Positions 59,243 to 62,359 of a stretch of 64,000 nucleotides of DNA are shown piece after piece. The notes under the pieces were generated by a model that saw only the letters and a list, made by a program, of their open reading frames with translations, did no database searches and was not told the DNA's origin. A program made the translations under genes and the position numbers. Location of the stretch: assembly GCA_025355165.1 (NCBI GenBank), contig JANYAD010000032.1, positions 1-64,000 of the forward strand, given 5' to 3'. Origin of the DNA: Gammaproteobacteria bacterium (lineage in GTDB: Bacteria > Pseudomonadota > Gammaproteobacteria > Steroidobacterales > Steroidobacteraceae). The first letter of the stretch is position 1. Each line of letters begins with the position of its first letter.

Positions 59243-59662
59243 TCACCATCGGCCCACATTCTGCATTGTGGTCCAGGGCACCTCGGGTGTCAGTGCCGGG
59301 CCCTTTTGCAGCAATTCGATGGAAATCCCGTCGGGGGAGCGCACGAAGGCCATGCGGCCATCGCGGGGCGGCCGAGAGATCGTAACTCCATGCTCCATGA
59401 GGCGCCGGCATGCGGCATGAATGTCATCGACCGCATAGGCCAAATGACCGAAGTTGCGCCCTCCTGAATATTCCTCAGGGTCCCAATTGTGCGTGAGTTC
59501 GACTTGCGCTTCCTCATCGCCCGGTGCCGCCAAGAACACCAGCGTATAGCGGCCCTGCGGATAATCCTCGCGCGATAATTCCTTCAAACCAAGCGCATCG
59601 CGATAAAAGCGCAGTGATCGCTCGATATCCGCAACGCGCACCATTGTGTGTAGATACTTCAT
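59243..59662 (-). CDS. gloA: Lactoylglutathione lyase (glyoxalase I)
   Basis: MKYLHTMVRVADIERSLRFYRDALGLKE...GRNFGHLAYAVDDIHAACRRL. Confidence 0.9.
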   Translation of the reverse strand: MKYLHTMVRVADIERSLRFYRDALGLKELSREDYPQGRYTLVFLAAPGDEEAQVELTHNWDPEEYSGGRNFGHLAYAVDDIHAACRRLMEHGVTISRPPRDGRMAFVRSPDGISIELLQKGPALTPEVPWTTMQNVGRW

Positions 59663-59795
59663 TGGCCCCTCTTCTGATGCTTTCAATCTGGAGGATAGAG
59701 TCCCCAAAAGCAACTCGCGGGAGTGACACCGATGAGCGTTCATGGACGGTGCGCCACGCGCCCGCGGAAACTGGTGTCACCATTTGGCAACACAT

Positions 59796-59825
59796 TTGAC
59801 ATAGTGCAGCAAGGGCGGTTAATAA
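59796..59825 (+). promoter_or_regulatory. Sigma-70-like promoter for a noncoding transcript or long leader
   Basis: TTGACA (59796-59801), 17-18 bp spacer, TTAATA/TAATAA (59819-59825). Confidence 0.55.
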
Positions 59826-59831
59826 TCGTTT

Positions 59832-60043
59832 AACTATTGGATTTGGATAGATTATCGCCTATGATGAGCGTGACGAAGATGGTATGTGTTTCCTCCAGCG
59901 TTACTTAGTTGCAACACTGGGCGGCACCAACAAGGTCGAACGTTTAGGCACTTTTGTGCGGCGTATCCGCCACCCATGGACGTGTAGGTATTTACCCATC
60001 ACCTGTTCCACTCGATTCCCCGGCACGTCCGGGGATTCTTTTT
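59832..60043 (+). ncRNA. Candidate structured RNA or 5' leader of unknown family
   Basis: Bounded by promoter and terminator; local stems GCAC-TTTT-GTGC (59948-59959), GCGG-CGTAT-CCGC (59958-59970), GGTA-TT-TACC; only a 15-aa ORF (59861-59908). Confidence 0.4.
60018..60043 (+). terminator. Intrinsic terminator
   Basis: CCCCGG-CACGT-CCGGGG followed by ATTCTTTTT. Confidence 0.75.
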
Positions 60044-60098
60044 GAAATCCTTATAAAGTTTGTGCACTGAAAGCGCGCGAATCGCGTAAATTTTGTGC

Positions 60099-61379
60099 GT
60101 GAAAAACCTATATCGCTCGCTATACGTCCAAGTGCTGGTCGCTATCGGTCTTGGCGTGTTGCTGGGATATTTCTACCCACAGCTTGGCGCCAGTATGAAG
60201 CCGCTTGGCGATGGCTTCATTAAACTCATCAAAATGCTGATCGCGCCGGTCATCTTTTGCACCGTCGTGCTGGGCATTGCCGGCGTTCAAGACATGAAAA
60301 AAGTGGGCAAGACCGGCGGTCTCGCGCTCATTTACTTCGAGGTCATGAGTACCGTGTCGCTGATCCTTGGACTGGTCGTGATCAACGTATTACATCCGGG
60401 CAGCGGCATGAATGTCGATCCCCAGTCGTTGGACACCGGCCCTTTGAAAGATTACACGGCACCAGGCAGATTACAGTCGGTGACGGACTTTGCGCTCAAC
60501 GTCATCCCCTCGCAAATGGCCGATGCGTTCGCCAAAGGTGAAATCCTGCAGATTCTGTTGATCGCCCTGCTGTTCGGCTTCGCGCTGCAACAGCTCGGGA
60601 GCCGTGCCGCCGCGGTGATGAGCTTCATCGAGTCGCTTTCGCACGTGATTTTTTGGATTGTCGGCATCGTCATGCGATTGGCGCCTATCGGTGCATTCGG
60701 CGCCATGGCCTTCACCATCGGCAAGTATGGATTCCATTCGCTAATCGCCTTGGGCGCGCTGATGGTAAGTTTCTATGCGAGTTGTCTGCTGTTCATTTTT
60801 GGGGCATTGGGAATCGTTGCCCGCGTGCACGGTTTCAGTATTTTGCGATTCATCAAATACATCAAGGATGAGCTGCTCATTGTGCTCGGCACCTCCTCCT
60901 CGGAAACCGTGCTGCCGCGAATGATGGCCAAACTGGAAAACCTCGGTGCCGCCAAGCCCGTGGTCGGATTGGTGATTCCCGCCGGTTATTCCTTCAACCT
61001 CGACGGCACCTCGATCTATCTGACCATGGCGGCGCTCTTCATCGCGCAGGCGACCAATACGCCCATGAATCTATATCAACAGTTTGCCCTGCTCGCCGTC
61101 TTGTTGCTGACGTCCAAGGGCGCCGCCGGCGTGACGGGCAGCGGCTTCATCGTCCTCGCTGCCACGCTCTCCGCCGTGGGTACGCTGCCGGTGGCCGGCC
61201 TCGCTCTCATTCTTGGGATTGACCGATTCATGTCCGAAGCGCGTTCTCTCACCAATGTGATCGGCAACGGTGTCGCGACGCTGGTCATCGCCAAATGGAC
61301 CGGCGAGCTGGACGTTGCAAGATTGAATAGCGAACTTCATCCAGCTGCGCCCATCGCCCTGCGGCCGGCGATTCCATGA
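60099..61379 (+). CDS. DAACS-family (dicarboxylate/amino acid:cation) symporter; GTG start, TTG at 60093 possible
   Basis: [70 protein letters not shown]. Confidence 0.93.
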
Positions 61380-62359
61380 GCATCCAAGACGGGTTTGTTG
61401 GCGCGGTCGGCAACACGCCCCTGATCCGCCTGCGCGGCGTCAGCGAGGAAACCGGCTGCGAGATTCTGGGAAAAGCCGAGTTCATGAATCCCGGCGGCTC
61501 GGTTAAGGACCGCGCGGCGAAATGGATTGTGCTCGACGCGGAACGGCGCGGCACGCTAAAGCCTGGCGGCACGGTGGTCGAGGGCACCGCCGGCAATACC
61601 GGAATTGGGCTTGCGCATGTTTGCAACGCGCGCGGCTACAAATGCGTCATCGTGATGCCGGACAATCAAGCGGCGGAAAAATATCAGATCATCGAAGCGC
61701 TGGGAGCGGAACTGCGCAAGGTGCCTGCGGTACCCTACAGCAATCCGAATCAGTTTCAAAAGGTGGCGGGCCGCCTCGCACAAGAATTACCCAATGCCAT
61801 TTGGGCCAATCAATTCGACAACATCGCCAACCGCGAGGCGCATTTTCAAAGCACCGGACCTGAGTTGTGGCAAGGCACCGGCGGAAAGATCGACGTCTTT
61901 TGCGCCTCCACCGGCACCGGCGGCACTCTGGCTGGGACCGCACTCTATTTGAAATCACAATCCGCCGCAGTGCGCATCGTGCTGGTGGATCCTCCCGGCA
62001 GTGCCTTGTACCACTACATCAAGGAGGGCGAACTGAAGACCGATGGCGGTGCTTCGATCACTGAGGGTATCGGCACCGGTCGCGTGACCGCGAATTTGCA
62101 AGGGGCGCCCATCGATGACGCCTTGCGCATATCGGACGCCGAGACCCTGCGCTTCGTCTACCGGCTGATGCGTGAAGAGGGTTTGCTGCTGGGCAGCACA
62201 TCCGGAATCAATGTCGCCGCGGCGGTGAAGTTGGCGAAGCAACTGGGCCCGGGTCACACCATCGTCACCATCCTGTGCGACGGGGGTGCAAAGTATCAAT
62301 CGCGCTTGTTCAACAATTCTTGGCTGTCCGAGCGCGGATTTCTCGAGGCAATCGCCTAA
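61376..62359 (+). CDS. Cysteine synthase (PLP-dependent)
   Basis: [77 protein letters not shown]. Confidence 0.93.

Follow-up and report, generated by a model that had tools for sequence, protein, structure and literature searches.

Genomic Context and Extent of the RNA Gene

The window, by which we mean the whole 64,000-nt stretch of DNA analyzed, carries a short non-coding unit on the plus strand at 59873-60043 that is very probably a real free-standing sRNA gene. It lies between two genes that are themselves outside the RNA, a divergently oriented VOC/glyoxalase-family gene (59243-59662, minus strand; Pfam Glyoxalase, 6.5e-26) and a sodium:dicarboxylate symporter gene (60099-61379, plus strand; Pfam SDF, 5.7e-111). 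The unit was delimited using blastn, covariance-model searches and alignments of relatives, its 5′ end being placed from the -10 element and its 3′ end from an intrinsic terminator. The terminator (60018-60043, plus strand) consists of a CCCCGG stem-loop at 60018-60034 followed by a U-tract, with the T-run extending to 60043, and corresponds to the strong GC hairpin with a T-run described in the original prediction. That prediction had also placed the terminator ~55 nt before the symporter, and the distance from the end of the unit to the GTG at 60099 is indeed 55 nt.

The promoter had been assigned to a TTGACA-TTAATA pair. TTGACA is present at 59796; however, TTAATA agrees with the -10 consensus at only two of six positions, a scan of the region that did pick up the terminator-like site left the pair unreported, and relatives have not kept it; we therefore rejected it as the main promoter. 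The conserved promoter sits ~40 nt downstream and follows the pattern TTGGAT-17-TATGAT (59838-59866), common to the relatives. At its -35 element, TTGGAT (59838-59843, plus strand), the aligned relatives carry TTGGA or a near variant, always 17 nt from the -10 element, TATGAT (59861-59866, plus strand), which in relatives is mostly TGnTAnnnT, a TG-extended -10. Based on the location of this conserved promoter, the transcript most likely starts near 59873 and would have a length of ~170 nt.

Further upstream, a conserved block (59775-59812) comprises an imperfect palindrome, TGTCACCATTTGGCAACA (59775-59792), followed by TTTGACATAGTGCAGCAA, which contains the TTGACA at 59796. In general form, a palindrome-like TGTCAC-N6-G(C/T)GACA and a TTTG(A/C)-N6-GCAAA-like block precede the promoter. 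Alignments showed the block to be recognizable in most relatives at a variable distance from the -35 element, and it probably serves either as a binding region for a regulator (center about -90 to -70) or in the promoter of the divergent VOC gene. The strict pattern TGTCRC-N6-GYGACA was found at a single location in the genome, elsewhere than this locus, and the palindrome was rejected as a genome-wide regulon site on the basis of this single perfect site. Relatives of one clade (L016, L017, L018, L065) carry the sequence TTATCCACA, an exact match to the DnaA-box consensus of E. coli, directly at the -10/start region of their RNA gene; the window copy lacks it.

Distribution and Conservation

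A blastn search with 59790-60092 detected the unit in 18 of the 23 genomes of the genus, with most matches stopping at the terminator; at the sensitivity of blastn the other genera sampled gave no match. The covariance model R1 extended the set by two further members of the genus (G007, G022) and, in a second genus belonging to the same family, by two genomes (G024, G071), resulting in 20 of 23 genus genomes plus the two from the second genus; the genus genomes without a match were G005, G012 and G017. A pattern scan of the genomes recovered the same group, which the covariance model confirmed, and wherever the RNA gene was found by the covariance-model search it was present as a single copy per genome. 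When the refined model was run against 296 genomes of the order, no convincing member was found beyond these two genera. A search of 30 genomes at higher sensitivity confirmed G071 and otherwise returned weak matches only. Genomes of further genera, among them G154 and G325, gave weak covariance-model matches (E 3e-4 to 1) that were not accepted as members, the one in G154 being short and resembling a terminator only.

Conservation covers the RNA and ends with it. Across the seven genomes in which the RNA neighbors the symporter, pairwise identity was 0.56-0.98 over the RNA and 0.16 over the 20 nt past the terminator, rising again into the symporter gene. The whole RNA is conserved, with identity collapsing once the terminator is passed.

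Secondary Structure and the Invariant Hairpin H3

A covariance analysis across relatives had been suggested with the original prediction, and compensatory changes support a common fold in these genomes. A 34-pair structure was derived from the alignment of relatives, and its four hairpins were supported by 14 of the 34 pairs changing on both sides in 22 sequences, compared to 7.2 in shuffles with none of 500 reaching this count, while sliding the partner columns reduced pairing from 91% to 51% or less; both figures come from a model-fitted alignment, which biases pair counts towards the structure. Among 18 sequences aligned with MAFFT, 90.5% of cells paired and 23 cells had changed on both sides (8.3 in shuffles; 0/500). 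The number of pairs changed on both sides in this alignment was seven compared to 4.9 expected (55/500), a weaker result than the model-aligned count. The folding energy of the window copy was unremarkable compared to shuffles (z of -0.26 and -0.51 in two runs), and the mean z over the transcripts of 22 relatives was -1.9.

Hairpin H1, CCAGCGUUACUUAGUUGCAACACUGG (59895-59920, plus strand), is variable in sequence with pairing mostly retained; six of its seven pairs changed on both sides among the 22 sequences and 76.5% of cells were paired. Hairpin H2 (59934-59971, plus strand) has a conserved lower stem, GG..GARCGY / RCGYAUC..CC, below a variable apical hairpin, with 98.3% of cells paired and an A-U/G-C exchange at one pair in 9 of 22 sequences. 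Hairpin H3 (59978-60009, plus strand), the hairpin proximal to the terminator, has a lower stem, GGACGUG / CACCUGUUCC, that is invariant and an upper stem that covaries, and was missing from the minimum free energy structure of the window sequence taken alone. Its seven lower pairs were identical in 22/22 sequences, with four upper pairs changed on both sides. Since these seven pairs never change, H3 is constrained in its sequence itself, and it is a candidate seed or protein-binding element. The terminator was predicted with a probability of 0.96 or more in 22/22 relatives. On comparative grounds the conservation of the unit, its sigma-70-like promoter pattern, the four-hairpin fold and the predicted intrinsic terminator are thus established.

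The invariance of H3 is also what speaks for an sRNA acting mainly by protein binding, through titration or as a scaffold, with the H3 stem as the protein site: seven pairs fixed in sequence while their neighbors covary are expected of a paired element that is read by a protein. A CsrB-type sponge, however, needs many GGA loops, whereas only one conserved GGA is present here and it lies in a stem, and a distinct 6S RNA is encoded elsewhere in the genome. We consider this mode of action unlikely.

Neighboring Genes and the Leader Hypothesis

The VOC/glyoxalase gene lies divergently upstream of the RNA in the window and most relatives. The downstream side is more varied. A co-directional symporter gene follows at 38-55 nt from the RNA in the window and about half of the relatives, and in one relative cysM is downstream of the RNA without the symporter. 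Other relatives carry an SDR dehydrogenase gene and then a cysB-like gene, a gene for a DUF2157 protein, or others, and in some the downstream genes are convergent (e.g., siroheme synthase, pyridine nucleotide-disulphide oxidoreductase).

This arrangement bears on whether the unit is a free sRNA or an attenuated leader, both of which had been put forward in the original prediction. As a leader, riboswitch-like or of the leader-peptide type, it would control the symporter-cysM operon, a role suggested by its position shortly upstream of the co-directional symporter in about half of the relatives and once upstream of cysM alone. The conserved co-directional linkage to a regulated gene that such a leader should display was, however, not found, the next gene being unrelated or facing the opposite way in other relatives (siroheme synthase, oxidoreductase, SDR dehydrogenase, DUF2157 protein). 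Because the downstream genes vary and some are convergent, control of one fixed downstream operon is unlikely to be the selected function. Furthermore, the terminator is predicted strongly in all relatives, with no competing antiterminator evident in folding predictions made free of ligand and ribosome, and neither a conserved leader ORF nor an Rfam riboswitch match was found. We consider the leader improbable overall, and of the two possibilities the free sRNA is the one supported by varied and convergent neighbors, a terminator in all relatives and 16% identity past it. Within the symporter clade, to which the window belongs, read-through into the symporter could nevertheless matter.

That the unit instead encodes a small protein, either as a dual-function gene or as a plain small ORF, is very improbable, since the sense ORFs of 20-63 aa seen in several relatives (e.g., 59884-60045 in the window) appear to be chance occurrences that differ in frame and sequence among relatives, with indels that are not multiples of three and no Pfam match. 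The original prediction had likewise seen no convincing ORF, and this view was borne out: the longest sense ORF (53 aa) was without a match in Pfam and no ORF within the transcript was kept among the relatives.

Some further observations concern the surroundings of the RNA. Within the genus of the window, ilvB and the VOC/glyoxalase gene converge. Elsewhere in the family, the ilvB coding sequence adjoins the 5′ side of the VOC gene in many genera (loci L069-L095). The RNA fills the region lying upstream of the VOC gene; in the loci read from other genera, most of which have ilvB coding sequence next to the VOC gene, no RNA was found in that region except in genus g3. Sulfur-metabolism genes recur beside the RNA, namely cysM, a cysB-like LysR gene and the siroheme synthase gene cysG (60099-62359; L063, L047, L048), and are possibly remnants of one ancestral cluster.

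Proposed Mode of Action

Our preferred reading, to which we assign a probability of about 0.8, is a single-copy free-standing sRNA gene with its own promoter, four hairpins and a terminator, the product of which is probably bound by Hfq and acts by base pairing in trans. Several features expected of an Hfq-type sRNA were found: a short conserved non-coding unit delimited by a predicted promoter of its own and an intrinsic terminator, a conserved secondary structure with covariation, and Hfq encoded in the same genome (PF17209; 103.6 bits, E 1.6e-29). For the mode of action taken separately, given that the sRNA gene is real, we lean towards Hfq-type trans base pairing.

Under the free sRNA reading, transcription would run from ~59873 to 60043, and expression would likely be set by a regulator acting at the conserved block ~70-90 nt upstream of the start. 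The transcript would probably be bound through its U-tract by Hfq, the gene for which is present. The RNA would then act in trans by base pairing, with the CACCUGUUCC region as a putative seed. The invariant GGACGUG...CACCUGUUCC(A/C)CU is a likely seed or protein-contact element because CACCU/GUUCC is complementary to Shine-Dalgarno-like AGGUG/GGAAC.

Targets were searched for across the genus with one narrow pattern, GAACAGGTG-N(2-9)-ATG, alongside a reversed control. The pattern was commoner than the reversed control. In most of the 80 regions fetched with it the sites fell within open reading frames, and a shared encoded protein was seen for only two pairs of regions, so that this pattern yielded no recurrent ribosome-binding-site target with complementarity to the H3 strand in the genus.

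Comparison with Known Systems and Significance

An Rfam search, likewise proposed with the original prediction, returned no family at gathering score anywhere in the window (Rfam 15), in agreement with the view that the unit is not a 6S RNA, tmRNA, RNase P RNA, SRP RNA or known riboswitch. A permissive Rfam search of the region gave two chance-level matches only, to NsiR1 and P36. The RNA unit was unmatched in the plasmid collection, and, judged by title and the opening of the abstract, none of the papers retrieved in a literature search on Steroidobacter small RNAs describes such an RNA.

With its promoter, structure and terminator defined comparatively, the RNA brings a well-supported sRNA family to a little-studied and largely uncultured family of soil Gammaproteobacteria, and it illustrates that comparative genomics alone suffices to locate such sRNA genes. 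The invariant hairpin H3 offers a concrete testable element. In other respects the biology is of a familiar, ordinary type, with a gene-regulating role probable. A more far-reaching view would be that of an undescribed lineage-restricted sRNA family in which the GGACGUG/CACCUGUUCC hairpin is a new protein- or mRNA-recognition module and the RNA is a core regulator of an uncultured lineage; we regard this as unlikely.

Among known RNAs, 6S RNA (RF00013) resembles the RNA in its similar length and single chromosomal copy, whereas the four-hairpin layout with a terminator differs from it and the 6S model was without a match here. An identity as 6S RNA was rejected, as no 6S match reached the gathering threshold at this locus and a 6S gene is located elsewhere in the genome (C4:27679-27865). 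NsiR1 (RF02399) and P36 (RF01679) share a terminator-like GC hairpin with a U-tail, but the matches are at chance level, NsiR1 with 14.3 bits compared to a gathering score of 39 (E 3.5) and P36 with 13.1 bits compared to 36 (E 5.5) and on the other strand. Attenuated leaders and riboswitches of cysteine or amino-acid transport operons are similar in having a terminator just upstream of a transporter-cysM operon, and differ in that no antiterminator, leader peptide or set of downstream genes is conserved here. The closest likeness is to the class of Hfq-dependent trans-acting sRNAs found in Gammaproteobacteria; no Rfam sRNA family matches the RNA by sequence or covariance, and both Hfq binding and an mRNA target are putative. 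Like members of this class it is intergenic, has its own putative promoter, falls within about 100-200 nt, folds into several stem-loops, ends in an intrinsic terminator with a U-tract, contains an invariant short segment and occurs in a genome with hfq. While outside every Rfam family tested, the RNA is best filed, as a class, with the free-standing trans-acting sRNAs.
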